The notes beneath the pieces were generated by a model, which searched no databases, was not told the origin of the DNA, and saw nothing but the letters and a program-made list of their open reading frames with translations. Positions 60 to 59,820 of a DNA stretch of 64,000 nucleotides are shown here, in pieces (within the stretch, counting starts at the first letter, position 1; every line of letters begins with the position of its first letter). The translations under genes and the position numbers were made by a program. Origin of the DNA: Acidiphilium sp. PA (GTDB lineage Bacteria > Pseudomonadota > Alphaproteobacteria > Acetobacterales > Acetobacteraceae); contig NZ_JAIMBY010000007.1 in assembly GCF_026191915.1 (NCBI RefSeq), positions 62,001-126,000 of the forward strand. Direction: 5' to 3'.

Positions 60-177
60 CTTCTTTTTTGGAAAAAAGAAGCAAAAAACTTTCTGACCCT
101 GGGGCACGGGCGTTTGAAGCGGCACGGGCCTAAATTAACAAAGTTTTTTTGCTTCTTTTTTGTTCACAAAAAAGAAG
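60..177. repeat. A/T palindromic element, paired copy 1
   Basis: Left stem-loop CTTCTTTTTT/AAAAAAGAAG followed by CAAAAAACTTT, then a GC-rich core (CTGGGGCACGGGCG...CACGGGCC), then the inverted unit AAAGTTTTTTTGCTTC plus a second stem-loop ending at 177. The right unit is the reverse complement of the left. It lies upstream of putA. The core matches that of the copy at 40243. I do not recognise it as a named element. Confidence 0.85.
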
Positions 178-3990: not shown

Positions 3991-4938
3991 ATGACTTTGG
4001 AGCAGTTGCGGATTTTCCTGGTGGTGGCGCAGCGCGAGCATGTGACTCGCGGGGCGGAGGCGTTGGGGATGACGCAATCGGCGGTATCGGGCGCGATTGC
4101 CGTGTTGGAGCGGGAGTTCGGCACCAGGCTGTTTCATCGGGTCGGGCGGGGGATCGTGTTGACCGAGGGTGGGCGGTTGCTGGCGACCGAGGCGGCGGGG
4201 GTCCTGGCACGCGCGGAATCGGCGGTTCTGGCGATGCGCGAATTCACCGGGCTGGCGCGTGGACGGCTCGAGGTGATGGCGAGCCAGACGATTGCGGGGC
4301 ATTTGCTGCCGGTGCGGCTGGTTGCGTTCCATCGGGCCTATCCGGGGGTGGCGCTGGCGGTATCGGTCGGTAATTCGGCGCAGGTGATCGAGGCCATTCT
4401 GCAGGGGCGGATCGAACTCGGTTTCATCGAGGGGCCGCGGGATGATGTCGCGGAACCCAACCTCGCGGCCGAACTGATCGCGACCGATCCGCTGATGATG
4501 ATCGTCAGCCCCGCGCATCCCTGGGCCTCGCGGGAGGGGTTGAGTGCCGACGATCTGGCCGCCGGGCAGTGGGTGGTGCGGGAGGATGGTTCGGGCACCA
4601 GAGCGGTGTTTTTCAGGGCGCTGGAATCGCTCGGCGTGGCCCGCGAGCGGGTCGATATCGTGATCGAACTGCCGTCGAACGAGGCGATCATGGCGGCGAC
4701 GGTGGCGGGGGCGGGGCCCACCATCGTATCCGCGCTGGTCTGCCAGAGCGAGATTGCAGCGGGCAGGGTGGTGCGTGTGCCGGTGAACCTGCCGCCGCGG
4801 GCGTTTTTCGCGGTGCAGCATGTCGACCGGTATCGGTCGCGGGCGGTGGCGGCGTTTCTGGGGGTTTTACGGGGGTGGGAGGCGGGGCGGGAAGAGTCTT
4901 CTTTTTTTGAAAAAAACGAAGCAAAAAAACTTTCTTGA
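3991..4938 (+). CDS. LysR-family transcriptional regulator, C-terminus encoded by a repeat
   Basis: LysR regulator of 315 residues. The N-terminal winged helix-turn-helix is clear (MTLEQLRIFLVVAQ, then GMTQSAVSGAIAVLE), followed by a type-2 periplasmic-binding-like effector domain. The product resembles CysL/CbbR-like LysR proteins, but its target cannot be read from sequence. It starts 56 bases after putA on the same strand, so a role near proline metabolism is possible, though most LysR proteins regulate divergent genes. The last ~13 residues (EESSFFEKNEAKKLS) and the TGA stop come from the A/T palindromic element beginning at 4898. The native C-terminus was therefore probably different. 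Confidence 0.9.
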   Translation: MTLEQLRIFLVVAQREHVTRGAEALGMTQSAVSGAIAVLEREFGTRLFHRVGRGIVLTEGGRLLATEAAGVLARAESAVLAMREFTGLARGRLEVMASQTIAGHLLPVRLVAFHRAYPGVALAVSVGNSAQVIEAILQGRIELGFIEGPRDDVAEPNLAAELIATDPLMMIVSPAHPWASREGLSADDLAAGQWVVREDGSGTRAVFFRALESLGVARERVDIVIELPSNEAIMAATVAGAGPTIVSALVCQSEIAAGRVVRVPVNLPPRAFFAVQHVDRYRSRAVAAFLGVLRGWEAGREESSFFEKNEAKKLS

Positions 4939-5012
4939 GCTGGGTTGTGCTGGTGAAAACGGCTGCGCGCTATCGCAACAAAAGTTTTTTGTTTCTTTTT
5001 TCGAAAAAGAAA
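4898..5012. repeat. A/T palindromic element, paired copy 2
   Basis: Left hairpin CTTCTTTTTTTGAAAAAAACGAAG with CAAAAAAACTTT, a core of about 47 bp, then AAAGTTTTTTGTTTCTTTTTTCGAAAAAGAAA. Same architecture as copies at 60 and 40243, but the core is diverged. Its left arm overlaps the end of the LysR gene. Confidence 0.8.
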
Positions 5013-12798: not shown

Positions 12799-12832
12799 AA
12801 AAGTTTTTTGGTTCTTTTTTTCAAAAAAGGAC
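12799..12832. repeat. A/T palindromic element, single unit (sucB-lpd spacer)
   Basis: AAAAGTTTTTTG followed by a stem-loop GTTCTTTTTTTCAAAAAAGGAC with one G-T pair. It corresponds to the right unit only of the paired element. It lies between sucB and lpd, 23 bases before the lpd start. Confidence 0.7.
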
Positions 12833-34901: not shown

Positions 34902-35708
34902 TCACGCCGCCGCGTGGGCCGGCGTCGCGTAGCCCAACTGCGCAGCGAGGTTGCCAAGCGTACGCACCGCGATGGTCTCATCGCGATGGGTTGCAGCGGA
35001 TCGAGCCGCACCGAGCTCGCTCACCGGGTCGCTGAACGGGGTGGGTCTGCGGCGTTGCGCATGCAGGAAACGCGCGATCGGCCCGCGGTCGGCCAGGTCG
35101 AGGAAGGACGCGATGGCGTCAGCCGCGCGATCGGCGTTGCCGATCAGATCCTCATGCGCAATGGTAAAGTGGCGATGGTCCCCCAACGCACCGAGGAAAC
35201 GGCGGATTTCAACGACATATTGCCGCCATATCGAAAGGCCCGCCTCGTAGCTGCCAATCCACCCCTTGCGGGCGAGCGACCGGGCGACGCTCGCGGGATG
35301 ACGGTGGATGTGGATGAATTTCGCCGCCGGCAAGACCTCCGCGATCAGCTCGAGACAGGAGCCCGACAGGGGCAGAATGGGGGTTGCCTCGGTACGGCCC
35401 GACAGCAGGGCAGGATCGGCGTAAGGCGGGTGCTTGTCGCCCCAGATCCTTGTGTTGATGCCGAGTTGTTCGCGGTAGAACCGCTCGATCGTGGCACCGG
35501 CGTGGCGGCGCTGGAACGCCCGCCAATCGGCCTGGAATTCCTCCCCGATCAGATCGTCGCGCGCACTGGCGGGATCGAGCCGGTGCTTGAGGTCCGCGAA
35601 CACCCGGGATTCGTTGGTGATCCTGATGTCCGGGTGCTGGTTCAGCACATGACACAGAAATGTGGTGCCCGAGCGCGGTGCGCCCACGATCATCAAAGGT
35701 TGCGACAT
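34902..35708 (-). CDS. Sulfotransferase family protein
   Basis: 268 residues from ATG 35708. The start MSQPLMIVGAPRSGTTFLCH holds the 5'-phosphosulfate loop (APRSGTTF), and the 3'-phosphate contact is likely in FIHIHRHPASVARSLARKGW. It therefore resembles PAPS-dependent sulfotransferases, acting on an unknown carbohydrate, lipid or peptide. The longer open frame (to 35999) runs antisense into the ABC ATPase gene and is not credible as N-terminus. No sulfate-activation genes are adjacent. It is a different subfamily from the gene at 26974. Confidence 0.85.
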   Translation of the reverse strand: MSQPLMIVGAPRSGTTFLCHVLNQHPDIRITNESRVFADLKHRLDPASARDDLIGEEFQADWRAFQRRHAGATIERFYREQLGINTRIWGDKHPPYADPALLSGRTEATPILPLSGSCLELIAEVLPAAKFIHIHRHPASVARSLARKGWIGSYEAGLSIWRQYVVEIRRFLGALGDHRHFTIAHEDLIGNADRAADAIASFLDLADRGPIARFLHAQRRRPTPFSDPVSELGAARSAATHRDETIAVRTLGNLAAQLGYATPAHAAA

Positions 35709-35814
35709 TGTTGCTCCATCACGACAGTGTGACAGAGCTGGGCTGATGACCGCGCGGTTTCCAGCCCGGATTTCGTAACTTTCGGTAAGGTCGCGTCCCG
35801 GCAGCGCGGCGCGG

Positions 35815-37134
35815 TTATTCCTCCTCGATATCCTCGAGGCTGAATTGCTGACCCTCCTCATCGTAGGCATAGAGCTCCGCGTAGCGGCCCCAGGAAATGG
35901 CGGTGCGCAGCGTCTCCTCGGCGCGCTCGGGCGACATGTGGTCCTCCAGCTCGTCACGGAATCGCACGGCGGAGGCCCGATGATTCCACCGTTCGTCAAT
36001 CACCTGGCGGATCGCTGCGACCAGTTTGACATGGGTACGCGCCGCCTCGGCAAAGATTTTCTTGCGCTCGTCGGTATCGGCGTGGACAAATCTGCGGCCC
36101 TGGTCGGTCAGGCGGATGTCGCCTTCCTCGAGTTCGGCGAAATGCAGCAGCTGCAAGGTCTCGCCGAGCGGCAGCAGTTCATCGGCCTCATATTGCAGCA
36201 CGGCGGCCAGCGCGGGCAGATCGGCCCGGCCATTATAGGGTTCGGCGGCGAGGGTTTCCATCAGCCCCGACATCAGATTGGTGCCGATCGGGTGGAGCGG
36301 CGTCGCGAATCCGGTGGCCGGTTTGGCCGCGGCGGCGCGCAGGTCGGCCGGGGTCTTGCGGCGGGTCATCACTGCGTAGATGTCGTCGACCATCTGGCGG
36401 AAGGCAGGGTCGAGCCGGTTGCGCGGATGGGCGAACGGCACGGTCATTTCATGGGCGACACGGCCGGGATCGGACGAGAACACCAGGATGCGGTCGCACA
36501 TCAGCACCGCCTCCTCGATATTATGGGTGACCATCAGGATCGATTTCACCGGCAGCTTGCGCTCGGACCACAGATCGATCAGGTCGGTGCGCAGCGTTTC
36601 GGCGGTCAGCACATCGAGCGCCGAAAACGGCTCGTCCATCAACAGCAGATCCGGGTGCGTGACCAGCGCCCGCGCCAGGCCGACACGCTGACGCATGCCG
36701 CCGGAAAGCTCCTTGGGATAGGCGCTTTCATAGCCACCGAGGCCGATCAGGTCGATCGCCTCCTCGGCGCGGGTCTCACGGATCGCGCGCGATACCCCCA
36801 TCGCCTCGAGACCGATTTCGACGTTTTCCTGCACCGAAAGCCAGGGAAACAGCGCGAAGCTCTGAAACACCATCGCGATGCCCCGCACCGGTCCGCGGAC
36901 CGGCTTGCCCTGCCAGGTGACATCACCGCTGGTCGGGCGCAACAGGCCGGCGATGATCCGCAGCAGCGTGGATTTGCCCGATCCCGAACGGCCGAGCAGC
37001 CCGACGATTTCGCCCTCGAACAGCCGCACATTGACATCGTCGAGCACGATGAGTTCGTTGTTGGCTTCCTTCGGATAGGCCTGCCGGCAATGGCTGACTT
37101 CGAGCAGGGTATGGGTGGTGACATGCTGATCCAT
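35815..37134 (-). CDS. ABC transporter ATP-binding protein (NitT/TauT type) with AAA-associated C-terminal domain
   Basis: 439 residues. The ATPase part has Walker A GRSGSGKSTLLRI, the signature LSGGMRQRVGLARAL, Walker B LLLMDEPFSALD and the switch His in VTHNIEEAV. It belongs to the nitrate/sulfonate/taurine import branch. Beyond about residue 270 it carries an extra helical domain of ~150 residues (LLPLGETLQLLHFAELEEGD, HMSPERAEETLRTAISWGRYAELYAYDEE), the AAA-associated C-terminal type found in some such transporters. ATG 37134 has GGGGA upstream. It follows the permease gene by 8 bases. No substrate-binding protein is adjacent. Confidence 0.9.
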   Translation of the reverse strand: MDQHVTTHTLLEVSHCRQAYPKEANNELIVLDDVNVRLFEGEIVGLLGRSGSGKSTLLRIIAGLLRPTSGDVTWQGKPVRGPVRGIAMVFQSFALFPWLSVQENVEIGLEAMGVSRAIRETRAEEAIDLIGLGGYESAYPKELSGGMRQRVGLARALVTHPDLLLMDEPFSALDVLTAETLRTDLIDLWSERKLPVKSILMVTHNIEEAVLMCDRILVFSSDPGRVAHEMTVPFAHPRNRLDPAFRQMVDDIYAVMTRRKTPADLRAAAAKPATGFATPLHPIGTNLMSGLMETLAAEPYNGRADLPALAAVLQYEADELLPLGETLQLLHFAELEEGDIRLTDQGRRFVHADTDERKKIFAEAARTHVKLVAAIRQVIDERWNHRASAVRFRDELEDHMSPERAEETLRTAISWGRYAELYAYDEEGQQFSLEDIEEE

Positions 37135-37142
37135 GGAATCCC

Positions 37143-38876
37143 CTATCCGAGATTGGTGCGGCGGCTGGCGTAGGCATAGAGCGGGCGCCACACCAGCCGG
37201 TTGAAACTCAGCACGAAGGCCGACATCACCGCGACTCCCAGCACGATCTTGCTGGTATCACCGGCGGTGGTGGCCTGCGCGATATAGGCACCCAGGCCCT
37301 TGGCCACCAGCGTGGTCTTACCCCAGGACGCCACCTCCGCGACGATCGAGGCGTTCCAGGCCGCACCGGTCGCGGTCAGCGCGCCGGTAACCAGATACGG
37401 CATGATGCCGGGAATGATCAGGCGGCGCCACCGCAGCCAGCCGCGCAGACCGAAACTGGCGGCAACCTCCTTGAGGTCACCCGGCAGCGCCGAGGCGCCG
37501 GCGACGACGTTGAACAGAATATACCATTGCGTGCCCAGGATCATCAGCGGCGTGAGCCAGATGTTCGGCAGGAGGCGGAAGGCGACGATGCCGGCCACCA
37601 CGAGCGGAAACAGCAGATTCGCCGGAAACGCCGCCAGGAACTGCGCGACCGGCTGCACCAGCTTGGTCGCCTTCGGGCGCAGACCGACCCACACACCCAC
37701 CGGCACCCAGATCGCGCAGGAGATGAGCAGGGCGGCGAGCACGCGCGCCAAAGTGAAAAACGCATCGATCACGCAGGTCAGCAGATCGGACCAGGCGAGA
37801 TGCGCCGCACAGAACGTCGCCACCTGCCAGAACGCATAGCCGGCCGCGGCGATCACCAGGGCGTAGAACACGCCATCGCCCAGTCTGGACGAGGTCCTGC
37901 CCGCCTTCAGCGAGGCGAAGGTACGTTCGGCGCGACCGAGGCGGAGCCGGCCGATCACAGCGACGCGATCACCCACCCAGCCGGCGGCCTCGCGCAGAAT
38001 AAAGGTCCGGCGCACCAGTTTCAGCACCCAGGGCTCGCCCGCCGAGACGGTCTGCACGGTTTCGAAGCGGAATTTGTCGGACCAGGCGACCAGCGGGCGG
38101 AACAGCAGCTGATCGTACAGCAGTATCACCACCAGCATGGTGAACACGGCTTCGAAAATCGCCAGCAGATCGCGCCGTTGCAGTGCTACCGCCACATAGG
38201 AGCCGATGCCGGGTAGAGTGAACGTCGTGTTGCCGACCGTGATGGCCTCGGCATAGACGACGAAGAACCACCCGCCCGACATCGACAGCATCATGTTCCA
38301 CACCAGGCCGGGAACGGCGAACGGCACGTCGAGCCGCCAGAACCGCTGCCAGGGCGAAAGACCAAAGCTGCGGCAGGCTTCATCGAGATCGGAGGGTTCC
38401 GTGGTGAGCGACTGGTAGAAGCTGAACGTCATGTTCCAGGCCTGGCCGGTGAACACCGCGAAAATCGCGGCACATTCGGCGCCAAGCTGCTGGCCCGGAA
38501 ACAGATTGACGAAGAACAGCACCGTGACCGACAGGAACCCGAGGATCGGGATCGATTGCAGGATGTCGAGCATCGGGATGATGATGATGGCGGCGCGCCG
38601 GCTTTTGGCGGCCAGCGTCGCGACCAGGAAGGTGAAGATCAGCGAGAGGAACAGGGCCGCGAACATCCGCAGCGTGGTGCGCACCGCATAGCCCGGCAGG
38701 TAGGCGGGATCGAGGTGAATATGCGTCGCCTGTGCGGCGGCCAGCGGCGCAAGCGTGCCGCGCGCGACGCTGACGACGCCGATCAGCACGCCCATCACGA
38801 GCAGAATCGCAGCGATGTCCCACGCGTTGGGCAGGCGGCGTCCATGCACAAGGGCAGGCGGGGCAATGCTGGTCAT
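37143..38876 (-). CDS. ABC transporter permease, tandem-domain fusion
   Basis: 577 residues from ATG 38876, about twice the usual permease size. Two binding-protein-dependent permease domains are visible: the first with FGLSPWQRFWRLDVPFAVPG as its EAA-type loop, the second with FGLRGWLRWRRLIIPGIMPY near the C-terminus. They are joined by a soluble linker (GWVGDRVAVIGRLRLGRAER). The partner ATPase is immediately downstream. Such fused permeases occur in NitT/TauT-like systems of unknown substrate; the absence of a nearby binding protein means the substrate cannot be inferred. Confidence 0.9.
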   Translation of the reverse strand: MTSIAPPALVHGRRLPNAWDIAAILLVMGVLIGVVSVARGTLAPLAAAQATHIHLDPAYLPGYAVRTTLRMFAALFLSLIFTFLVATLAAKSRRAAIIIIPMLDILQSIPILGFLSVTVLFFVNLFPGQQLGAECAAIFAVFTGQAWNMTFSFYQSLTTEPSDLDEACRSFGLSPWQRFWRLDVPFAVPGLVWNMMLSMSGGWFFVVYAEAITVGNTTFTLPGIGSYVAVALQRRDLLAIFEAVFTMLVVILLYDQLLFRPLVAWSDKFRFETVQTVSAGEPWVLKLVRRTFILREAAGWVGDRVAVIGRLRLGRAERTFASLKAGRTSSRLGDGVFYALVIAAAGYAFWQVATFCAAHLAWSDLLTCVIDAFFTLARVLAALLISCAIWVPVGVWVGLRPKATKLVQPVAQFLAAFPANLLFPLVVAGIVAFRLLPNIWLTPLMILGTQWYILFNVVAGASALPGDLKEVAASFGLRGWLRWRRLIIPGIMPYLVTGALTATGAAWNASIVAEVASWGKTTLVAKGLGAYIAQATTAGDTSKIVLGVAVMSAFVLSFNRLVWRPLYAYASRRTNLG

Positions 38877-39086
38877 GAGCAGATCCGCTTGAAAGAATTG
38901 ACGATGTCGGTCTGATGCCGGGCCCTGCGAACCTGACAGGCCCGCCATAACCCGCAATGCCCCCCTTGTCACCCACTGATTGGTTGCAGTTCGGTGATGC
39001 TTCGGACGGTTCTATTTAAGACCGATCTGGGCTATGCAACCAAACCGGCCGACTCGGACGCCCGGCAAGATGACTGGAAGGATCGC

Positions 39087-40211
39087 ATGAAGCTCAAGGC
39101 GGATCGCGCCACGCTCCTCAAGGCGCTGGCCCATGTTCAGAACGTGGTGGAGAAGCGCAACACCATCCCCATTCTCGCCAATGTCCTGCTGTCCGTGAAG
39201 GAAGGCCGCCTGACCATCGCCGCGACCGATCTGGAGATCGCGCTGATCGAGGACGTGCCGGTCGAGGCGGCGCAGGATGGTTCGGTAACCGCCCCGGCGG
39301 CCACACTGTACGAAATCGTGCGGCGTCAGCCCGAGCATGCCCAGGTCGAACTCGACCATCCGGGCGGCGATGCACCGCTCGCTCTCCGCGCCGGGCGCTA
39401 CGCCACCAAGCTCGTCGTACTGCCGACCGATGAATTCCCCAAGCTCGATGCCGGCAAGCTGAGCCACCGGTTTGCCATCCCGGCGCAGGCGCTCCGCGGC
39501 CTGATCGACCGCACGCGGTTTGCGATCTCGACCGAGGAGACCCGGTATTACCTGAACGGCATTTACGTCCACGCCGCCGAATCCGATGGCGCCCCCGTGC
39601 TGCGCGCCGTGGCGACCGACGGGCACCGCCTCGCCCGCGTCGAGGAGCCGCTGCCCGAAGGTGCGGCGGGCATGCCCGGCGTGATCATTCCGCGCAAGAC
39701 CGTCAATGAAATCAGGAAGCTGCTGGAAGATGTCACCGGCGAGGTCGCGATCGCCCTGTCCGAGACGCGCATTCAGTTCACCCTCGATACCATGCGAATG
39801 ACCAGCAAGCTGATCGACGGCACCTACCCCGATTACAGCAAGGTCATCCCGGTCGGTAACGACAAGATCCTGCGCGTCGACACCAACGATTTCTCCAACG
39901 CCGTCGCCCGCGTCTCCGCGATCACCGCCGAGCGCCACAAGCCGGTGAAACTCTCGGTGGCGCGCGATCTGCTGGTGCTCTCCGCCACCAGCCCGGATCA
40001 GGGGACCGCCTCGGAAGAGCTCGACGGCGAACAGGTGGAATACAGCGCCACGCCGCTCGAAATCGGGTTTCAGGCCCGCTATCTCAACGATGTGACGGAA
40101 CAGATCAAAGGCCATGTCGAATTCTGCTTCGCCGATGGCGCGGCACCGACGCTGGTGCGCGCCGCCGGCGATCAGAGCGCGATTTTCGTGCTGATGCCAA
40201 TGCGGGTCTAG
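39087..40211 (+). CDS. dnaN: DNA polymerase III beta sliding clamp
   Basis: 374 residues, full family length. The clamp starts MKLKADRATLLKALAHVQNVVEKRNTIPIL (as adjacent motifs), contains DKILRVDTNDFSNAVARVSAI in the third domain, and ends with the canonical hydrophobic pocket tail FVLMPMRV. The clamp tethers DNA polymerases to DNA. ATG 39087 with GGAAGGA upstream is preferred over the frame opening at 38994. It is followed by recF but not preceded by dnaA, whereas dnaA-dnaN-recF is the arrangement in many bacteria. An A/T palindromic element separates it from recF. Confidence 0.97.
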   Translation: MKLKADRATLLKALAHVQNVVEKRNTIPILANVLLSVKEGRLTIAATDLEIALIEDVPVEAAQDGSVTAPAATLYEIVRRQPEHAQVELDHPGGDAPLALRAGRYATKLVVLPTDEFPKLDAGKLSHRFAIPAQALRGLIDRTRFAISTEETRYYLNGIYVHAAESDGAPVLRAVATDGHRLARVEEPLPEGAAGMPGVIIPRKTVNEIRKLLEDVTGEVAIALSETRIQFTLDTMRMTSKLIDGTYPDYSKVIPVGNDKILRVDTNDFSNAVARVSAITAERHKPVKLSVARDLLVLSATSPDQGTASEELDGEQVEYSATPLEIGFQARYLNDVTEQIKGHVEFCFADGAAPTLVRAAGDQSAIFVLMPMRV

Positions 40212-40242
40212 CGGTCGCGCGGCGGTGCGAGGGGAGGAAGCG

Positions 40243-40359
40243 CTTCTTTTTTGAAAAAAAGAAGCAAAAAACTTTTTTTGATCTGGGGCACGGGCGCTTG
40301 AACCGTCACAGGCCCAGTGTCAGAAAGTTTTTTTGCTTCTTTTTTTTCAAAAAAAGAAG
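40243..40359. repeat. A/T palindromic element, paired copy 3 (dnaN-recF spacer)
   Basis: Left hairpin CTTCTTTTTTGAAAAAAAGAAG with CAAAAAACTTT, a core containing CTGGGGCACGGGCG.TTGAA and CACAGGCCC, then AAAGTTTTTTTGCTTC and a second hairpin ending at 40359. This is the best preserved copy, with the core shared with the copy at 60. It fills the dnaN-recF gap and ends 18 bases before the recF start. Confidence 0.88.
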
Positions 40360-40377
40360 TCCTTGCTTCCTTCTCCC

Positions 40378-41556
40378 ATGACAACCCTGACCACCCTCCG
40401 CCTGACCGATTTCCGCTCCTACGCCGCGCTCGATATCCGGCCGGCGTCGCGCATCGTGGCCCTCGAAGGGCCGAACGGGTCGGGCAAGACCAATCTGCTC
40501 GAGGCGATTTCGCTGCTGGCGCCCGGGCGCGGGCTGCGCGGCGCGAAATTTGCCGAACTGGCGCGGCGCGGCGGGTCGGGCGGCTGGGCGGTCGCCGCCC
40601 AACTCACCGATGCCGGGCGCCGCTTCACGCTCGGCACCGGCATCGATGGTCCGGGTGCCGAGCGCCGCAAACTCCTGCTCGATGGCGATCCGGTCACCGC
40701 GGCCGCGGCCGCCGCCGCCTTCGCCTGCGTATGGCTGACCCCGCAGATGGACCGGCTGTTCACCGAAGGCGCCAGCGCACGGCGGCGCTTTCTCGACCGG
40801 CTGACCCTCGCGCTCGCGCCAGCCCACGCGAGCGAGGTCGCGGCGTTCGAGGCGGCTTCGGCCAATCGCAACCGCCAGATCGAACAGGGCACCGCCGATG
40901 CCGCCTGGCTTGCGACCATCGAGGATTCCATGGCCCGCCATGCCGCCGCCCTGACGGCGTCGCGGCTCGATCTCATCGCGCGGGTCAACGCCATGCTGGC
41001 GCGCGGCGCGTTCGCACCGTTTCCGGCAGCGACCCTGGCGCTCGATTGCCCGATCGGGGCGCGCCTCGCCATCGAACCGGCGATCGCGGTGGAGGACTGG
41101 CTGCGGCGGCTCTATGCGCGCACCCGCGCCGAACCGGTCGCCGCGGTCTCGCCGCAGCGGGCCGATCTGCTGCTCGCGGATGCCGGCAGCGGGCTTGCCG
41201 CCGCCCTCGCATCGACCGGCCAGCAACGCGCCATGCTGGTCGCCATCGTGCTGGCGCACGCGGCGCTGATCGCCACGCTGCGCGGCGCGGCGCCGGTGCT
41301 GCTGCTCGATGAACCCTTCGTCCACCTCGATGCGGCGCATCGCCTCGCGCTGGGCGAGGCGCTGCGGCAAAGCCCGAGCCAGGTGTTCTGCACCGCGACC
41401 GATCGGGCGCACCTGCGCGCGCTGGGCGATGATGCGGCGGTCTGGCTGGTCTCGCCGGGGCGGATCGGCGGCGTCGGGTCAGGCGATCAGCCGGGCCCTG
41501 CTTTCGAACCGGCCGCTGGCCGGGTCGCCATCGGCGATGACGGCCCGATGCGCTGA
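40378..41556 (+). CDS. recF: DNA replication and repair protein RecF
   Basis: SMC/RecN-like ATPase of 392 residues that loads RecA at gapped DNA together with RecO/RecR. N-terminal LTDFRSYAALDIRPASRIVALEG precedes Walker A GPNGSGKTNLLEAIS near residue 30; the ABC-type signature region is STGQQRAMLVAIVLAHAALI and Walker B is VLLLDEPFVHLD. ATG 40378 is preferred: the frame opens at 40333 inside the A/T element and would add the artefactual FFQKKKSLLPSP. The C-terminus (GRVAIGDDGPMR) is longer and more divergent than usual. Confidence 0.95.
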   Translation: MTTLTTLRLTDFRSYAALDIRPASRIVALEGPNGSGKTNLLEAISLLAPGRGLRGAKFAELARRGGSGGWAVAAQLTDAGRRFTLGTGIDGPGAERRKLLLDGDPVTAAAAAAAFACVWLTPQMDRLFTEGASARRRFLDRLTLALAPAHASEVAAFEAASANRNRQIEQGTADAAWLATIEDSMARHAAALTASRLDLIARVNAMLARGAFAPFPAATLALDCPIGARLAIEPAIAVEDWLRRLYARTRAEPVAAVSPQRADLLLADAGSGLAAALASTGQQRAMLVAIVLAHAALIATLRGAAPVLLLDEPFVHLDAAHRLALGEALRQSPSQVFCTATDRAHLRALGDDAAVWLVSPGRIGGVGSGDQPGPAFEPAAGRVAIGDDGPMR

Positions 41557-41670
41557 GGCGACCTCAACCGGCATCGACCCGCGCCGCACAGTGTTGCCAC
41601 GAACCGATCAAGACTGCAGGATAGCACAACCCGGCATCAGACCGGTTCGCAACAGCACGAGGAAACCGCC

Positions 41671-42639
41671 ATGGCCAGCACGCTCCGCGCCGAAATCCCG
41701 GTCACCGAACTTCTCCGGAACGATCCGAAAAACTGGGGTCGCTGGGGTGACGATGACGAGGTCGGCGCCCTCAACTTCCTCACCCAGGCCGAAGTGCTGC
41801 GCGGCGTGCAGGCCGTCAGACAGGGCAAGACCTTCACCCTCCAGGTCATGATGGGTCATCCCGGCGGCGATCCGGTCTGGCCCGGCCGCGCCCAACCGGT
41901 CCGCGTCAACGTGATGGACAAGGGCCACTACCTCTGCGGCAAAGGCCCGGTATTTCCCGGCCACGCCGAATATGCGGACGACATGCTGATCATGTACCTC
42001 CAGGGCTCGACCCAATACGACGCGCTCGGCCACGTCTGGTGCGACGACACGCTCTACAACGGCTACGATGCCCGCACCACCGCCGGCAAAATGACCAAGG
42101 CGAGCGTCCTGCCGATCGCCGAACGCGGCATCGCCGGGCGCGGCGTCCTGATCGACATCGCCCGCCATCGCAACAAGCCGGTCCTCGACCGCGGCGAGAC
42201 CTTCACCCATGAAGACGTGCTCGCCGCTGCCGCGCAACAGGGCACGACGATTGAAAAACACGACATATTGCTCATCCGCACCGGCTGGATCGGCTCGTTC
42301 TACGACCGCGACAAGGCGGAATTCTATAAGGATTTCATCGAGCCCGGCCTGACCTACAGCCCCGAACTGGTCAAATGGTTCCACGAGATGGAAATCCCCA
42401 ACCTCGTCACCGACACCATCGCCAACGAGGTCACCGCCGATCCCGTCTCCGGCGTCGTCCTGCCGCTGCACAACGCGCTGATGCGCAATCTCGGCGTCAC
42501 CTTCACCGAAATCGCCGCCCTCGACGCCCTGGCCGACGATTGCGCGGCCGACGGCCAATGGACCTTCCTCTACACCGCCGCCCCCCTCAAAGTCGCCGGC
42601 GGCACCGGCGCCCCGGTCAACCCCGTGGTGATCAAATAG
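41671..42639 (+). CDS. Cyclase family protein (metal-dependent hydrolase)
   Basis: 322 residues, matching the cyclase/kynurenine-formamidase-like family of Mn/Zn hydrolases. The usual HxGTxxDxxxH metal motif appears here as QGSTQYDALGHVWCDD, lacking the first histidine; this variant is frequent in a subgroup of the family. Other conserved segments are GRGVLIDIARH and HDILLIRTGWIGSFYD. The substrate is unknown. It is followed 16 bases downstream by an acyl-CoA synthetase on the same strand, so the two may act on one carboxylic acid or amide. AGGAAACCGCC precedes ATG 41671. Confidence 0.88.
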   Translation: MASTLRAEIPVTELLRNDPKNWGRWGDDDEVGALNFLTQAEVLRGVQAVRQGKTFTLQVMMGHPGGDPVWPGRAQPVRVNVMDKGHYLCGKGPVFPGHAEYADDMLIMYLQGSTQYDALGHVWCDDTLYNGYDARTTAGKMTKASVLPIAERGIAGRGVLIDIARHRNKPVLDRGETFTHEDVLAAAAQQGTTIEKHDILLIRTGWIGSFYDRDKAEFYKDFIEPGLTYSPELVKWFHEMEIPNLVTDTIANEVTADPVSGVVLPLHNALMRNLGVTFTEIAALDALADDCAADGQWTFLYTAAPLKVAGGTGAPVNPVVIK

Positions 42640-42655
42640 GGCAGGGGCCGCGCCA

Positions 42656-44308
42656 ATGACCGTCTACGACGACAAACCCTGGCTCGGCCTCTACGACCAT
42701 GGCCAACCCGCCACCATCACCCCCGACTTCACCGACGCCCTGGCAATGTTCCGCGCCGCCGTCGCCCGCGCCCCGGACCGCGCCGCGATCCTGTATTTCG
42801 ACGCGACCCTCACCTACGCCGAACTCGACGATCTGAGCGACCGCCTGGCCACCCACCTCACCACCAACGGCTTCGCCCCGGGCGACCGCTTCGCCGTCTT
42901 CCTCCAGAACGTGCCGCAATTCGTCATCGCCATCCTCGCCGCCTGGAAATCCGGCGGCATCGCCGTCGCGGTCAACCCCATGAACCGCGCCCGCGAAATC
43001 GCCGTCCTGTTCGCCGATTGCACGCCCAAAGCCGTGATCTGCCACGACGAAACCTACCATACCGTCTTCGATCCGCTCGACCCGGCCCTCCGCCCCGCCA
43101 TCCTCATCACGACATCGGCGCTCGCATTCCAGACCCGCAACGATCCCCGTCTCTTCGCCAACGCCACCCGCCACCGCTTGCCCGACACCACCGACTTCGC
43201 CGATGCCATCGCGCACCCCGCCGCCCCGCCGCCAACCCCGCACTACCAACCCGCCGACATCGCCTTCCTGGTCTACACCTCCGGCACCACCGGCGTGCCG
43301 AAGGGCGCCATGAACACCCACGGCAACGTCACCTTCAACGCCCAGACCTATCGCGACTGGATCGAACTGGCCGAAGGCGCGCCGGTGCTCGGCATCGCCC
43401 CGCTGTTTCACATCACCGGCCTGATCGGCCACGTCGCCGCTGGCTTCCTCACCGCCGCCCCCCTGATCCTGTCCTACCGGTTCGAACCCGGCGTCATGCT
43501 CGACAGCATCGAGGAGCACCAGGCCGCCTTCACCATCGGCGCCATCACCGCCTTCATCGCCCTGATGAACCACCCGAACGCCACCCCCGAAAAACTGAAA
43601 TCCCTGACCAAAATCTACTCGGGCGGCGCGCCCATCCCGCCCAGCGTGGTCACCGCGTTTCGCGAGAAATTCGGCCCCTACATCCACAACGGCTACGGCC
43701 TGACCGAAACCAACTCCCCCACCCACGTCGTCCCGCTCTCACGGCAAGCCCCGGTCGACCCCGCCTCCGGCGCCCTGGCCATCGGCGTGCCCGTCTACGA
43801 CACGGTTTCCTGGATCTGCGACGACGAAGGCAATCCGCTCCCCCAGGGCGAAATCGGCGAAATCGTCACCCAGGGCCCGATGATCGTGCCCGGCTACTGG
43901 AACAAGCCCGACAAAACCGCCGAAGCCATCCGCAACGGCCGCTTCCACACCGGCGACGTCGGATTCATGGACGAACAAGGCTGGTTCTACCTGGTCGATC
44001 GCAAGAAAGACATGATCAACGCCGCCGGCTACAAAGTCTGGCCCCGCGAAGTCGAAGACGTGCTCTACACCCACCCCGCCATCCGCGAAGCCGCCGTAAT
44101 CGGCATCCCCGACCCCTACCGCGGCGAAACCGTCAAAGCCGTCGTCAGCCTCAAACCCGACGCCACCGCCACCCCCGAAGACATCATCGCCTTCTGCAAA
44201 TCCCGCATGGCCGCCTACAAATACCCCCGCACCGTAACAATAATCCCCGACCTCCCCAAAACCGTCACCGGCAAAATCCTCCGCCGCGAACTCAGAGACC
44301 CCGCGTAG
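42656..44308 (+). CDS. AMP-dependent acyl-CoA synthetase/ligase
   Basis: Adenylate-forming ligase, 550 residues. Core motifs are LVYTSGTTGVPKGAMNTHGN (phosphate loop), GYGLTETNSPTH, the adenosine-binding GDVGFMDEQGWFYLVDRKKD hinge region, and the catalytic lysine near the end in LPKTVTGKILRREL. It activates a carboxylic acid via acyl-AMP to the CoA thioester; the acid cannot be predicted but is probably supplied by the preceding cyclase-family hydrolase. The codons are extremely C-rich (43201-43260 has 34 C and 11 G). The TAG stop lies inside a REP palindrome beginning at 44304. Confidence 0.92.
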   Translation: MTVYDDKPWLGLYDHGQPATITPDFTDALAMFRAAVARAPDRAAILYFDATLTYAELDDLSDRLATHLTTNGFAPGDRFAVFLQNVPQFVIAILAAWKSGGIAVAVNPMNRAREIAVLFADCTPKAVICHDETYHTVFDPLDPALRPAILITTSALAFQTRNDPRLFANATRHRLPDTTDFADAIAHPAAPPPTPHYQPADIAFLVYTSGTTGVPKGAMNTHGNVTFNAQTYRDWIELAEGAPVLGIAPLFHITGLIGHVAAGFLTAAPLILSYRFEPGVMLDSIEEHQAAFTIGAITAFIALMNHPNATPEKLKSLTKIYSGGAPIPPSVVTAFREKFGPYIHNGYGLTETNSPTHVVPLSRQAPVDPASGALAIGVPVYDTVSWICDDEGNPLPQGEIGEIVTQGPMIVPGYWNKPDKTAEAIRNGRFHTGDVGFMDEQGWFYLVDRKKDMINAAGYKVWPREVEDVLYTHPAIREAAVIGIPDPYRGETVKAVVSLKPDATATPEDIIAFCKSRMAAYKYPRTVTIIPDLPKTVTGKILRRELRDPA

Positions 44309-44340
44309 GGCGGGGTGCGGCCTTCCGCACCCCACCGCCC
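44304..44340. repeat. REP-like palindrome 1
   Basis: CGTAGGGCGGGGTGCGG-CCTT-CCGCACCCCACCGCCC, a GC-rich hairpin with a CGTAGGG head. Its TAG serves as the stop codon of the acyl-CoA synthetase gene. Same family as 44449 and 45128. Confidence 0.8.
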
Positions 44341-44365
44341 AAAAGCCAGTAAAGCAAGGGCAGGA

Positions 44366-44399
44366 CTTCTTTTTTGCAAAAAAGAAGCAAAAAACTTTT
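44366..44399. repeat. A/T palindromic element, single unit
   Basis: CTTCTTTTTTGCAAAAAAGAAG followed by CAAAAAACTTTT, the left unit only of the paired element, placed between REP palindromes 1 and 2. Confidence 0.75.
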
Positions 44400-44448
44400 A
44401 TGAATCGCGGTGATCGCCGCTCGATGGTCCGCGCACGCATCAAACCAT

Positions 44449-44480
44449 CGTAGGGTGGGGTGCTCTTCCGCACCCCACCA
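44449..44480. repeat. REP-like palindrome 2, 3' side of the RAYT gene
   Basis: CGTAGGGTGGGGTGCTCTTCCGCACCCCACCA, identical over most of its length to the copy at 45128. Head CGTAGGG, stem GGTGGGGTGC-type with loop TCTTCC. It ends 13 bases before the RAYT stop codon. Confidence 0.85.
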
Positions 44481-44493
44481 CTGTCACCCCGCA

Positions 44494-45063
44494 TCACCCG
44501 TCCGGTCTCTCACCAAATCCGCCACCCATCTCCGCCCCGCCGCCCCAACCAGCCGGATAATCCCCCCGTGCCACCGCCCGCCGAAACGATGAAAACGGCC
44601 AATTCCCGGCATGGCCCACCAGCCCATGCTTGACCGGATTAAAATGACAATAATCCACATGACGCCTGAAATCAGCCTCATCCCGTATCGTGTGTTCCCA
44701 AAACCGCCGCTGCCACACACCGCGTTCGCCCTTGGCAATCCGAGAGGCGGATCGGCTTTCACCTTTCGCAAGTCTCACCGAGAAACCGCGCTTGATCAGA
44801 GCCCACCTCACGGAAAAATCGGCATCACCATCCGGCAATGTCCATACCGCATGCAGATGCTCGGGCAGCACAACCCATGCGTCGATGTTAAATGGATACA
44901 GCGCGCGGGCTCGTAAAACCGACGCGCGTAGGGCGTCAACCTCCTTGACCAGCAGGTCGCTGCGCCGGTCAGCCAAGGCGACGGTGAAAAAATATGTTCC
45001 GCCTGCGACGTGATTTCGCCGATACTCCGGCATTCGTTTACCATTTCGCTGTGCCCTCGGCAT
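44494..45063 (-). CDS. REP-associated tyrosine transposase (RAYT, Y1 family)
   Basis: 189 residues from ATG 45063, or 179 from ATG 45033. The HUH motif is in AWVVLPEHLHAVWTLP and the catalytic tyrosine in HVDYCHFNPVKHGLVGH, with the family ending NWPFSSFRRAVARGDYPAGW. RAYTs are single-copy IS200-like transposases thought to process REP palindromes. Here identical REPs lie on both sides (44449 and 45128). The frame stays open upstream to 45243, through REP 3 and into the C-terminal frame of a deleted RAYT copy, but that part is not credible as N-terminus. Confidence 0.93.
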   Translation of the reverse strand: MPRAQRNGKRMPEYRRNHVAGGTYFFTVALADRRSDLLVKEVDALRASVLRARALYPFNIDAWVVLPEHLHAVWTLPDGDADFSVRWALIKRGFSVRLAKGESRSASRIAKGERGVWQRRFWEHTIRDEADFRRHVDYCHFNPVKHGLVGHAGNWPFSSFRRAVARGDYPAGWGGGAEMGGGFGERPDG

Positions 45064-45127
45064 TTTGGCCCTGCAATGGTGGAGTGCAAGGAAAGGCGAC
45101 GATATGAAAACGAAGATGCTTAGCCGG

Positions 45128-45160
45128 CGTAGGGTGGGGTGCTCTTCCGCACCCCACCAC
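45128..45160. repeat. REP-like palindrome 3, 5' side of the RAYT gene
   Basis: CGTAGGGTGGGGTGCTCTTCCGCACCCCACCAC, same sequence and orientation as the copy at 44449. It lies between the intact RAYT gene and the deleted RAYT copy. Confidence 0.85.
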
Positions 45161-45164
45161 TTCA

Positions 45165-45386
45165 CCAAACTTCGTCCTTCCGGTCTTCCACCGAATTCCC
45201 CACCCACGCCGCCCCAACCGGCCGAATCCGCCCCGCGTGCCACAGCCCGCCGAAACGATGAGACCGGCCAATCCTTGCCGTGTGCGACCAGCCCGTACCT
45301 GACCGGGTCAATGTGAACATAACCGCCAACGCGACGGCGAACACATACGGTCCGCCTTCAACGCGATTTCGCCGATACGCCGGCAT
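45165..45386 (-). pseudogene. Internally deleted RAYT transposase copy
   Basis: Reading the minus strand from ATG 45386, MPAYRRNRVEGGPYVFAVAL matches the N-terminus of the intact RAYT (MPEYRRNHVAGGTYFFTVAL). It is then joined directly to GYVHIDPVRYGLVAHGKDWP, the counterpart of the intact VDYCHFNPVKHGLVGHAGNW, followed by SSFRRAVARGADSAGW. About 100 codons including the HUH histidines are missing and the two parts are out of frame. The C-terminal frame runs on through REP 3. It resembles a non-autonomous derivative left by internal deletion. Confidence 0.85.
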
Positions 45387-45427
45387 TGACCGGCCATTTG
45401 GATGAACAGTCGGCATGATGGTGCCGG

Positions 45428-45460
45428 AGCGCGGGGTGCGGAACATCACCCAACCCTAAG
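45428..45460. repeat. Diverged REP-like palindrome 4
   Basis: On the minus strand CTTAGGGTTGGGTGATGTTCCGCACCCCGCGCT resembles the REP head and stem with several mismatches and lies in inverted orientation relative to REP 3, on the 5' side of the deleted RAYT copy. Confidence 0.55.
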
Positions 45461-45491
45461 TCGGCTGACAGGCGGTTTCGTGAGGGAGGGT

Positions 45492-45523
45492 GGATAATGG
45501 GTATCGCGCGATACCCATCATCC
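45492..45523. terminator. Long palindrome downstream of the PEP-CTERM gene
   Basis: GATAATGGGTATCGC and GCGATACCCATCATC form a 15-bp stem with one G-T pair and essentially no loop. It lies 22 bases after the stop of the minus-strand PEP-CTERM gene, so termination or mRNA end protection is plausible. No T-run follows on the minus strand, hence the low confidence; a protein-binding site is the alternative. Confidence 0.4.
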
Positions 45524-45544
45524 GTCTGGTGGTTCAACCTCTCA

Positions 45545-46468
45545 TCAATGTTTGCGCCGTGAGCGGACGGCCAGGCCGAGACCGATCAGACCCGTCCCAA
45601 GCAACGCCAACGACCCAGGTTCCGGCACCGGCGTCGGCGCCGAGATCTCATAAACCCAAGACCCCCCACCGCCCCCGCCTTGACCGAAACTATTACCATT
45701 TGTTCCCCCCATGCCGCCGACTTCAAGGTCGAGCACCGTCCCGGCGGTCAACGTGATGTCGCCACTGACGGTCGCGCCAAGTCCGCCGACGAACTTTTGT
45801 CTAATTAAACTGATGCCGCCGCCGCCCTGGCCGCCGGAGGCGGTGAAATCGTAGACGCCGGTGGTGGAAACATCATAGCTCTGTGAACCGCCGGTATAGC
45901 TGAACGACTGTATGGAATTACCGAATTCGATAGAAATGGAGCCCGCGCCAGTATTTTTACCGGTAGTTCCCGAGATATTGCTGAACGCGGCGGCAAGAAA
46001 GGAACTGCCGCCGCCGCCGGCGCCCGCATTAGCTGGGGAATCGCCGCCGCCACCACCGCCGCCATTATAGCCGCCGCCGCCGCCGCCGCCGAAGCCGCCG
46101 CCGCCACCGCCACCGCCGTAGGCACCGGAGCCGCCACCATAAGCACCCGCCAAGCCGAACCCGGGATAGGCCAACCCCCCGCCCGCGAAGCCGTCCCCGC
46201 TGGGACCACCGTTACCAAGAGCGCCCGCGCCGCCCGCGCCGCCCGCGCCGAGACCACCGGCCCCACCCGACCCGTTCAAACCGGCGTTTCCACCAGGACT
46301 GCCACCGTTCTGAGCCACCGTCCCCGCCTGGCCCTCGCCGCCACCGACTCTATAGAACGCCCCACCACCCCCACCGGCGACCATCAACAGAATCGGATTG
46401 GCAAGGGCGTGCGCCGTCGTCGCGCAAAACAGGGTGGTCACGAGCAGGGCAATACGGGTCCGGGTCAT
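45545..46468 (-). CDS. Glycine-rich PEP-CTERM surface protein
   Basis: 307 residues. An N-terminal signal peptide (RIALLVTTLFCATTAHALA) is followed by ~130 residues dominated by glycine (for example GAYGGGGGGGGFGGGGGG), then a strand-rich domain (QSYDVSTTGVYDFTASGGQG) and a C-terminal PEP-CTERM sorting signal VPEPGSLALLGTGLIGLGLA with basic tail RSRRKH. PEP-CTERM proteins are cleaved by an exosortase and linked to the envelope or exopolysaccharide matrix. No exosortase gene is seen in the window. The exopolysaccharide genes at 51.8-59.8 kb are a plausible functional partner. The Gly tract causes long GCC/GCCGCC runs on the plus strand. Confidence 0.9.
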   Translation of the reverse strand: MTRTRIALLVTTLFCATTAHALANPILLMVAGGGGGAFYRVGGGEGQAGTVAQNGGSPGGNAGLNGSGGAGGLGAGGAGGAGALGNGGPSGDGFAGGGLAYPGFGLAGAYGGGSGAYGGGGGGGGFGGGGGGGYNGGGGGGGDSPANAGAGGGGSSFLAAAFSNISGTTGKNTGAGSISIEFGNSIQSFSYTGGSQSYDVSTTGVYDFTASGGQGGGGISLIRQKFVGGLGATVSGDITLTAGTVLDLEVGGMGGTNGNSFGQGGGGGGSWVYEISAPTPVPEPGSLALLGTGLIGLGLAVRSRRKH

Positions 46469-46748
46469 GGTGGCTCCTTACGGGAAAAGAACGAACAAAA
46501 GTTACTGAGCAAAATCAATGCCAAAAATTTTCTCGTTTCAATTCAATGTCATAATGAACGCATGAAACCGTTAGTGTAAAAAATCCTGACACCCACCGCG
46601 CGTAACGCCCGGGCAAGGATCGGGCGACCCGCCGCACCCCACCCCTTTCAACGCCCGTCCTCCGTCCGGCATGGCACCACACTCACCACGAAGACGTTAA
46701 TGAAAATAACTCTTGCTTAGCTCTACCCGAGCATGCTTATATCCGGCC
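46469..46748. other. Intergenic region upstream of the PEP-CTERM gene
   Basis: About 280 bases without a supported gene. The part 46490-46580 is AT-rich compared with its surroundings and probably holds the minus-strand promoter of the PEP-CTERM gene. TAAGGAG (minus strand, near 46475) is its ribosome binding site. Nothing else was recognised. Confidence 0.5.
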
Positions 46749-47231
46749 GTGGATAGAACCCCAGCCTCAGCCGTCTCGACCGTGCCGATCAACGCCAGAC
46801 TACAAGGCGTGTTCGACCACGTCTCGGCTCAGCGCGGTGCCGATGCCCTGAGCGACGCGATCGTGGACCTTATCCTCACCATCCTGAACATCCTGCGCAG
46901 TTTCCTCGAAACCTGCGCCTCACCATCCGCACCGGCACCAAACTGCCCGGCCCTCAACGCCACCATCCGCCCGCAACCCGAAGCCACGCCCCCGCGCCGT
47001 GCCACGTCCGCCTCACCGCATCCCGCACGCCGCCATCAGCGCCCGCCCGCCGCGAACCCGCCCGCCCCGAACCCGCCCATCTGCGCAACCGCCCAACCCA
47101 CACCAACCGAACCCATCCCAAACCCCGTCACCACAGCGGTCGCCATCTCACCCTCGCGCCAGGCCCGCCCGCCAGACCCCCATCCGCGCCGCCAAACCGC
47201 ACGCCCAGAGCACCGGTTCAAACACGCCTAA
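46749..47231 (+). CDS. Proline-rich hypothetical protein
   Basis: 160 residues from GTG 46749; the frame opens at TTG 46713 and no ATG is available near the start. The N-terminal half contains an amphipathic/hydrophobic helix (DALSDAIVDLILTILNILRSFLE) and the rest is a Pro/Ala/Arg-rich low-complexity tail (NPPAPNPPICATAQPTPTEP). Similar short helix-plus-proline-tail proteins are known as hypotheticals in Acetobacteraceae, but I cannot name a family. The tail may be only a by-product of C-rich sequence. No clear ribosome binding site. Confidence 0.35.
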   Translation: MDRTPASAVSTVPINARLQGVFDHVSAQRGADALSDAIVDLILTILNILRSFLETCASPSAPAPNCPALNATIRPQPEATPPRRATSASPHPARRHQRPPAANPPAPNPPICATAQPTPTEPIPNPVTTAVAISPSRQARPPDPHPRRQTARPEHRFKHA

Positions 47232-47256
47232 TTCGTTACGATATCAAAACAAAAAC

Positions 47257-48228: not shown

Positions 48229-48242
48229 GCGGCGCCGCCCGG

Positions 48243-49511: not shown

Positions 49512-49541
49512 GTCCTGACACTCACGCTGCCGTCTCGCCGG

Positions 49542-49781
49542 TTACTCGGCTTTCTGCTTCTCGATGTAATCGATCGCGTCCTTGACGGTCGTGATCTTCT
49601 CGGCCGCGTCCTCGGGAATCTCGACGCCAAACGCCTCTTCGAACGCCATGACCAGCTCGACAGTATCAAGGCTGTCCGCGCCCAGATCATCGATGAAGGA
49701 GGCTTCAGGCGTTACTTTCGCTTCATCGACGCCGAGATGCTCGACAACGATCTTCTTTACCTTATCGGCGACTTCACTCAT
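49542..49781 (-). CDS. acpP: Acyl carrier protein
   Basis: 79-residue acidic carrier of the growing fatty acid chain. The 4'-phosphopantetheine attachment serine is in [19 protein letters not shown] near residue 37. ATG 49781 with AGGAG (49792-49796, minus strand) gives the canonical start [17 protein letters not shown]; the longer frame upstream is ignored. It sits between fabG and fabF as in most proteobacteria. Confidence 0.97.
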
Positions 49782-49932
49782 TCTCTGTGTGCTCCTGTAA
49801 CGAAATTTTGGGCGGTCCATAGGCACGAACATCCCGGAGAATTCATGGCCAGCGCCATGTTCCGGTTTACTTGCGAAAGTCCGGCGCGCTTAGCATGGTT
49901 CATCGTGCCGCGCCAACCATGGCGCGGCGCTG

Positions 49933-51631: not shown

Positions 51632-51638
51632 GAACCCG

Positions 51639-51644
51639 TCTCCT
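51639..51644 (-). promoter_or_regulatory. Ribosome binding site deciding the fabD start
   Basis: AGGAGA on the minus strand, 7 bases before ATG 51631, rules against the longer frame that opens at 51700. Confidence 0.75.
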
Positions 51645-51740
51645 GCTCTTGGGCGCGGGGTAGATTGGGACGGCGCGCAAGTCAATTCTGGGCCTGCCAC
51701 GGCCGGTAGATGGGCGGCCTGAGGTGTGCGGAAGAAAGCT

Positions 51741-51774
51741 CTTCTTTTTTGGAAAAAAGAAGCAAAAAACTTTT
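51741..51774. repeat. A/T palindromic element, single unit
   Basis: CTTCTTTTTTGGAAAAAAGAAG followed by CAAAAAACTTTT. Left unit only. It separates fabD (start 51631, reading away) from the end of the Wza-like gene (51854). Confidence 0.8.
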
Positions 51775-58440: not shown

Positions 58441-59820
58441 ATGCCGCAGGCTGAACCGACCGTCTCGCCCGCTGTCTCGAGCCAGCAGCAGCAAAACATC
58501 TGCCTGAAGCCAGCCGCCGAACCCCACCAAAGGCACGCCGCCTCAGGACCAAAGTTTTTTTGCTTCTTTTTTTTCAAAAAAAGAAGAACTTCCTTAATTT
58601 TCCTGGCATTATTGTACCCCTCAGCCGCCCAAGCCCAATCGATCGGCAACCTCCTCCCGATCGCAGTACCCGGCTTTTCCGTCGCCGCCGGCGTCACCGT
58701 CGCGACACGCCTGCACCGGGACGACATCCCGCGCGGCATCACGCTCGGCATCACGCCGGACGATCTGCGGGTCTACCCGAGCCTCACCGCCACCACCGGG
58801 TTCGACAGCGCCCCGGCTGCCGGTGCCCCGGCGAGCGCCACCATCCGCCTGCAACCCTCGGTCCAGATCAGCGATGCCGCCCTCGGCCTCGCCGCCTTCG
58901 CCGGTGCGGATCTCAACCGCTATCCGGGCGATCAGGCGGCCGCGGCCAACAACATCACCGCCGGCCTCGGCCTCGATGTACCCTTCGGCGCGGGCACCAT
59001 CACCCTGGGTGGCGCGCGCCTCACCACCCGGGAATCCGCCCTCGGCACCAGCCAGGCCGCGGCCAGTGCCCCGTTCGCCGTCGCCCTGACCGACGGCAGG
59101 GCAGCGCTCCGCCTGCCGCTCGGCGCGTTCGATACCACCAGCCGGATCGAGTTCAGCGACACCACGATCAACCGCACCACCACCACGCTACCGGCCCCGT
59201 TCCGCGCCCGCGCCTTCCTGCGCGCCTCGGGCGAACTCGCCACCGCGAACGACGGCGTGCTGCGCCTGCTCGCGCGGCTGAACCTCGCCGTCGCGCGCTA
59301 CAGCGGTGTACGGGCCGGTGCCGGCGTCTCGAACGCCACCACCATCGCGCTGCTCGGCGGGGCGGAAACCGCGCCGGGTCGCGTGCTGCGCCTGCGCGCG
59401 GTCGCCGGCATCGCGGCGCAACATTTCGCGGGTCCCACCACCGCGCCCGGCACCATCCCGGTCGGCTCGATCGGCCTGGGCTGGACGCCGGACGCCCTGA
59501 TCGCCGCCGAACTCGATCTGAGCCGCGATTCCGGCATCGACACCACGCTCGGCACCCCGGGCGAGCCGGTCACCACCCTGCATTTCGCCCTCGCGAACGC
59601 CTTCACCCGCTCCTTGTTACTCACCGCCACGGTCGATGCCAGCGCCGGCACCATCGCCGGCCATCAGGCGCGCGACACCACCATGCAGCTCGGAGCCGCC
59701 TGGTCCTGGGCGCGGCATTTTTCCCTGCAACCCAGCCTGTCCTATGCAATTCGCCACAATCTGCCAGGATCGGCGCCGCACGAGCTGCGCCTGCTGGTGG
59801 CGCTCACCTGGGCGCCGTGA
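58441..59820 (+). CDS. Outer-membrane beta-barrel protein of the exopolysaccharide region, repeat in its leader
   Basis: 459 residues. The mature part alternates short strands and Gly/Ala turns ([35 protein letters not shown]-type segments, [18 protein letters not shown]) and ends in WAP, as in outer-membrane beta-barrel proteins encoded with exopolysaccharide clusters. The leader is odd: ATG 58441 is followed by ~37 polar residues, then [13 protein letters not shown] from the A/T palindromic element (58551-58586), then [15 protein letters not shown] as hydrophobic core and cleavage site near residue 65. No better start codon exists after the repeat. The repeat-derived KKRR would act as the positive n-region. 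Confidence 0.8.
58551..58586. repeat. A/T palindromic element, single unit inside a coding sequence
   Basis: AAAGTTTTTTTGCTTCTTTTTTTTCAAAAAAAGAAG, the right-type unit, in frame within the leader of the barrel protein gene. Confidence 0.85.

Follow-up and report, generated by a model that had tools for sequence, protein, structure and literature searches.

Some bacteria of the family Acetobacteraceae, among them Acidiphilium sp. PA, carry a small dispersed element whose repeated unit is an A/T hairpin followed by a purine tail, and this tail is coupled to the upper stem of the hairpin both in length and in letter. We propose that the unit is a natural, selected triple-helix hairpin, that it forms the core module of an undescribed class of dispersed bacterial element found in Acetobacteraceae and in Clostridia and other MAGs, and that its third strand has evolved through covariation of the Hoogsteen type. 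We give this reading a probability of about 0.48. As to class, what can be read from the DNA letters makes it an even call that the element is a REPIN-like, non-autonomous dispersed element with a triplex-type hairpin unit.

The element was noticed in a stretch of 64,000 nucleotides (the window) in which a preliminary description had placed seven copies, and all seven are present, far in excess of chance (Table 1). The stem word CTTCTTTTTT occurs 15 times in the window where 0.02 are expected, and the tail word CAAAAAACTTT, with at most one mismatch, occurs 11 times against an expectation of 0.15; one of these matches, at 6325, is outside the repeat family, leaving 10 of the 11. Facing pairs of units account for three of the seven copies (60, 4898 and 40243) and single units for four, divided equally between the two orientations. 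Both CTGGGGCACGGGCG and TTGAA recur in the cores at 60 and 40243. It had been stated that every copy lies at a gene border, and this is mostly so, except that the left hairpin at 4898 and the unit at 58551 overlap ORFs or a leader. The former is inside the 3' end of a LysR-type ORF (3991-4938), the stop codon of which falls within the element. The latter, positions 58551-58586, translates in frame as KFFCFFF-KKRR close to the N-terminus of a porin-like ORF, ahead of a signal-peptide-like stretch, and the frame is kept in a related genome, G005. The window also contains GC-rich REP hairpins of the GTAG type (GTAGGGTGGGGTGC...GCACCCCACC) at 44305, 44450 and 45129, two of which bracket the A/T unit at 44366.

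Table 1. Coordinates of the elements and their parts in the window.
Feature	Positions	Strand	Remarks
Paired element	60..177		left hairpin 60-81, tail 82-92, core 93-139, right tail 140-150, right hairpin 152-177
Paired element	4898..5012		left arm T7 (imperfect stem), tail A7; site also occupied in G005
Single unit	12799..12832	-	between E2-type gene (11515-12732) and lpd-like gene (12855-14246)
Left hairpin of pair	40243..40264	+	between dnaN (38997-40211) and RecF-type gene (40378-41556)
Spacer C, proposed third strand AAAAAA, then CTTT	40265..40275	+	length and index match to stem, 542 units
Core	40276..40323		whole element 78-88% identical to many other copies in the genus
Right tail, proposed third strand	40324..40334	-	A7 on minus strand
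Right hairpin	40336..40359	-	T7 arm
Single unit	44366..44399	+	3' of AMP-binding enzyme gene (42656-44308), between two GTAG-type REP hairpins
Single unit, pair remnant	51741..51774	+	full pair at that site in G001, G002
Single unit	58551..58586	-	leader or N-terminal coding region of porin-like ORF

The unit consists of a 4-bp base (usually CTTC/GAAG or GTTC/GAAC), n upper pairs that are mostly T-A, a loop that is usually GA, then a single spacer base and n purines that form the tail. Coupling between stem and tail was scored in 542 units having a Watson-Crick-perfect stem, one of the listed bases, a 2-nt loop, spacer C and a purine run of length m followed by C. Identical 95-base contexts were counted once, and the group "other" in this set includes PKZM and CAHJWU records, which are apparently the same genomes as G188 and G139 (the dnaN ends L057 and L263 agree). 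The tail is as long as the upper stem in 520 of the 542, compared with a mean of 388 and a maximum of 408 in 10,000 shuffles that ignore kinship; by class, the lengths are equal in 5/6 units with n=5, 446/458 with n=6, 50/57 with n=7 and 19/21 with n=8. The right unit of the element at 60, with an upper arm of 8 bp that includes one G-C pair and a tail of 7 A, is among the few in which they are unequal. The coupling extends to the letters. In 79 units the arm contains a C, so that a C-G pair replaces T-A, and in 72 of these the tail has a G at the same index, with a full parallel fit, while none of the 79 has an all-A tail. Both the 542 and the 79 are mostly copies within few genomes, and the independent events are far fewer. 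Examples are CTTC-TTTTCT/AAAAGA, GTTC-TTTCTT/AAAGAA, GTTC-TTTTTC/AAAAAG and CTTC-CTTTTT/GAAAAA. The variants occupy index 1 (G792), index 4 (G068, G188 and Acidiphilium rubrum), index 5 (G188 and G092) and index 6 (G773 and G746), those of G068, G773, G746 and G792 being matches to a search pattern in which arm and tail are unconstrained.

In the light of these results the tail matches what is required of a Hoogsteen third strand, because it is complementary in the parallel sense and mirrors the purine arm in order. It does so in length as well. Exceptions in the letters are L199, which has a C at index 1 and a tail without G, L051 (base GTTAC), whose tail is all A although its sister L028 carries GAAAAA, and units in which only one arm has changed, which often retain the plain tail (the G067 rows). 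By eye, T.G and C.A mismatches are about equally frequent, so that wobble favours neither strand. A further 39 units carry a G in the arm, and in 33 of them the tail is still all A and as long as the upper stem. Seen from the minus strand, these units place a T opposite a C-G pair, the interruption that pyrimidine triplexes tolerate best. We suggest that when the unit is single-stranded, as DNA or as RNA, the tail would pack onto the upper stem to give an intramolecular triple helix. On the minus strand the order would then be U(n)-G-CUUC-U(n)-UC-A(n)-GAAG, with the triplets U.A-U and C.G-C. Such a fold would be tight, since one spacer base must span 4 bp, and either strand may be the one that folds: the plus strand is sense-downstream in Clostridia, and a purine third strand would be needed there. 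Folded as RNA or DNA with two strands alone, a single unit reaches a modest value of about -6 kcal/mol; the whole pair folds as one long hairpin (z -7.5 for RNA and -8.0 for DNA).

The letter coupling might also arise if the tail were an alternative, antiparallel partner of the T arm, exchanging with the purine arm in a two-state switch. The variants at indices 4, 5 and 6 can indeed be placed in an antiparallel register by drawing on the C of the base (CTTC or GTTC), but a separate register is needed for each variant. The index-1 units discriminate between the two rules: there are two, both in one genome, and they satisfy the parallel rule at 6/6 positions and antiparallel exchange at 5/6. A search of 22 genomes of the family gave no further index-1 variants. 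On these grounds strand exchange seems unlikely.

A triple-helix hairpin of the kind we propose resembles several known structures. The RNA triple helices of the ENE, of MALAT1 and of the telomerase pseudoknot are built of U-rich and A-rich strands with a parallel third strand, and C.G-C replaces U.A-U in them. These features are shared here, whereas the present units are bacterial, are known from sequence, occur in up to hundreds of repeats, and each combine a single hairpin, its base 4 bp long, with a tail of stem length. The mirror symmetry of purine arm and tail is that of H-DNA mirror repeats, but it covers only 5-8 bp, is attached to a hairpin and changes jointly in three ways. To our knowledge, a triplex-type hairpin with three-way covariation has not been described in bacterial repeats. 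If the proposal is correct, this would be a rare case in which evolution reports a triple helix, the stem pair and the third strand changing jointly with matched lengths, and it would offer a testable module for triplexes in cells.

In the complete 4.54-Mb genome from which the window derives (G000) there are 197 exact hairpins and none in the reversed control, and a search for hairpin-tail units gives about 254 against 1 in the reversed control. With the window DNA as query, the paired form emerged as a family of matches of about 120-165 bp, 78-88% alike, in G000, G001, G002 and G005; by this likeness its dispersed copies are homologous. Relatives were found that lack it at two sites. Between dnaN and the RecF-type gene the element is present in G000, in G005 and, with its right half decayed, in G002, and it is absent from G003, G004, G006, G008, G010 and G012. 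At the 51741 site G001 has a full pair, G002 has two tandem pairs, G000 and G005 have a single unit, and G003, G004, G010 and G012 have nothing. Since full pairs stand at this site in G001 and G002, the single unit is a remnant of a pair. The empty sites are too diverged for a target-site duplication to be read. Comparison of G000 with G005 reveals no recent movement, because all 9 of the 9 aligned sites are occupied in both and the one extra unit of G005 is in a segment that has no aligned counterpart in G000; the site of the element at 60 is also occupied in G005. At another shared site (C67:39214, L171, and G005:C46:19560, L161) the polar core is in opposite orientations, as if it had inverted between the arms. 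We suggest that the form that is copied is the facing pair, with its core between the two units, and that at least some singles would be pairs that have lost one half.

The units are also better conserved than their surroundings. For 12 units at eight sites, G000 and G005 agree at 390/402 positions, compared with 1265/1440 in the 60-bp flanks (p 3.5e-9); these flanks are partly coding and core sequence, and site 39214, with its core unaligned, was excluded. Within the window, 31/34 positions are kept in the unit at 12799 (flanks 94/120), 32/33 in that at 44366 and 33/34 in that at 58551 (flanks 84/120). Taken with the copy counts, the empty sites and the stem-tail coupling, this bears out the earlier suggestion of a dispersed, structurally selected small element.

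We next consider position relative to genes. Most of the 265 clusters of elements used for this purpose come from loci fetched for containing a unit; seven loci labelled as other phyla were excluded from these and the neighbour-gene counts, and genes were called by a purpose-written script, so that distances to starts are approximate. Between genes there are 225 clusters, 4 are inside called genes, and 36 are at locus edges and were left unclassified. Back-to-back pairs make up 19 clusters, beside the facing pairs and singles. In the 60 facing pairs between codirectional genes the hairpin starts a median of 15 nt 3' of the upstream stop codon, in the 22 between convergent genes the nearer and farther stops are at medians of 8 and 19 nt, and 13 are between divergent genes. 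Singles between codirectional genes are sense in 29 cases and antisense in 40, and thus favour no strand.

The proximity to stop codons is what would be expected of a transcription terminator or attenuator active in both directions, as had been proposed earlier. Several observations argue against it. The unit does not have the G+C-rich stem and following U run of an intrinsic terminator; its A-U stem is weak (-6.1 kcal/mol, z -0.8) and no U run comes directly after. Units are found between codirectional genes that are probably operonic (dnaN and the RecF-type gene, the E2-type and lpd-like genes, and a plasmid-borne cluster annotated as an ABC transporter), singles are not biased towards sense, and by eye some Clostridia carry a separate terminator-like hairpin near the unit. 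A terminator scan of positions 35000-54000 listed no unit, although it demands three G-C pairs and could hardly have listed one. Termination is therefore not supported and appears distinctly improbable. Placement just past stop codons would likewise suit a protector of mRNA 3' ends of the ENE/MALAT1 type that is carried by the repeat. In Clostridia, 9 of 10 loci have a sense ORF of at least 80 aa that ends no more than 100 nt before the unit, although short ORFs among them may be chance, and both a U-rich and an A-rich strand are available. ENE-type helices combine two U strands with one A strand, however, and that arrangement exists here on the minus strand only, while many units are antisense to their genes; we regard protection as having a slim chance of being correct. 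With the triple-helix hairpin, units near stop codons may be retained for some local benefit to the transcript or to the DNA.

In several respects the element resembles REPINs. As outlined in PMC3116915 and PMC3733652, REP sequences and REPINs share with it palindromes that face each other in pairs and are apparently copied as such, with singles as remnants (a remnant being observed here at one site), an extragenic location, a high and variable copy number, and tandem pairs (here in G002). Relative to those outlines, the present unit is A/T-rich and without a GTAG or CGTC tag, no Y1 gene was found in several high-copy genomes, and the tail follows the stem in both length and letter. The coexistence of pairs and singles would be accounted for by a classical GTAG REP/RAYT system, and RAYT-like genes, judged to be such by reading the ORFs, are present in 11 of the 200 family genomes in which Y1 matches and units were both counted; 8 of these 11 bear units, compared with 54 of the other 189 (p 0.004), an enrichment that may be an effect of kinship. 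Before the ORFs were read, weak Y1 matches fell in 13 unit-bearing genomes versus 3 (p 2.3e-5); on reading, those in G074, G148, G043, G061 and G189 did not look like RAYTs. G005 and some other carriers of units have a Y1 match. However, G000 has no Y1_Tnp match, G002, G188, G092 and G139 are outside the 24/200 genomes that have one, and the units have no GTAG tag beside the hairpin. At the 12 RAYT loci inspected (9 from unit-bearing genomes) a unit was within about 150 bp at 1, and a GTAG-tagged, GC-rich hairpin was close to 4. It is thus very unlikely that this system is responsible, and because the GTAG and RAYT tests fail we do not file the element as a REPIN in spite of its REPIN-like architecture. 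MITEs are similarly short and non-coding, with inverted-repeat ends and empty sites in relatives, but here there is no readable target duplication and a related insertion sequence was not found. Among the 1678 called genes, 596 adjoin units, and no recurrent cluster among them had the look of a transposase family. In G000, facing units 0.6-0.8 kb apart were also considered; one pair encloses an ORF of 194 aa with no Pfam match, and by eye none resembled an autonomous copy. The compact end of the unit, folded as a triplex hairpin, may be the feature that the moving enzyme recognizes, by analogy with the hairpins of IS200 and REP elements. With this proposal comes the question of the enzyme behind hundreds of copies in genomes that are devoid of RAYT.

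The statement that the element corresponds to no named family holds, in that Rfam gave no match to the window at gathering score. At E up to 1, 20 loci gave 26 Rfam matches, none at its own gathering score, and a literature search over titles and the starts of abstracts returned no description of this repeat family. A new family of this kind may confuse assemblies and gene calls in Acetobacteraceae.

Units are present in 10 of the 13 genomes examined in Acidiphilium, where copy numbers over the 13 run from 0 to 306. A sample of 200 Acetobacteraceae genomes from 102 genera has them in 62 genomes and 36 genera, with a maximum of 1,539 per genome. Carriers among the matches listed include Acidiphilium rubrum and many Acetobacteraceae MAGs. 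Seeming runs of units on one strand among the genome matches were attributed to the order in which matches are given and were set aside. By eye, the dnaN 3' end has a unit, in some cases degraded, in 5 of 20 distinct genomes besides that of the window. An "Acidobacteria" MAG with 924 matches (BOG_genome_mining.39; G214; L030, L090) has its dnaN in the same place as G092 and is therefore that Acetobacteraceae genome with a title that misleads. Distant blastn with one pair matched no phage and one plasmid record, Acidiphilium multivorum pACMV3, in which the copy is 78% identical and within the annotated ABC transporter cluster. Across 398 Pseudomonadota genomes, the pattern with unconstrained arm and tail had matches in 35; on visual inspection, true hairpins are confined to G000 and G068, both of which are Acetobacteraceae, and the matches in the other 33 are chance. 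Several copies matching this pattern occur in each of three Clostridia MAGs (15, 10 and 5), in a Defluviitaleaceae MAG (13 copies) and in a Nitrospirae MAG (8, of which 5 are exact). In the Clostridia MAGs and the Defluviitaleaceae MAG the rows are all identical over 32 bases. Of 295 genomes from one Clostridia order, 21 matched and 4 were true of kind (G209, G746, G773 and G792). The unit is accordingly not specific to the lineage, as had been supposed, although the pair core, unlike the unit, does look lineage-specific. The surroundings differ among these groups. In Clostridia the unit is held in a repeated noncoding element of about 230 nt with a terminator-like hairpin at its end, and this element (L229-L237) is mostly 19-70 nt 3' of a stop codon. 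In Defluviitaleaceae the unit is accompanied by a GGGGCTTCGCCCC-like hairpin. In the Nitrospirae MAG (L246, L247 and L248) a small hairpin precedes the unit and displays paired changes, TGCC..GGCA versus TGTCC..GGACA.
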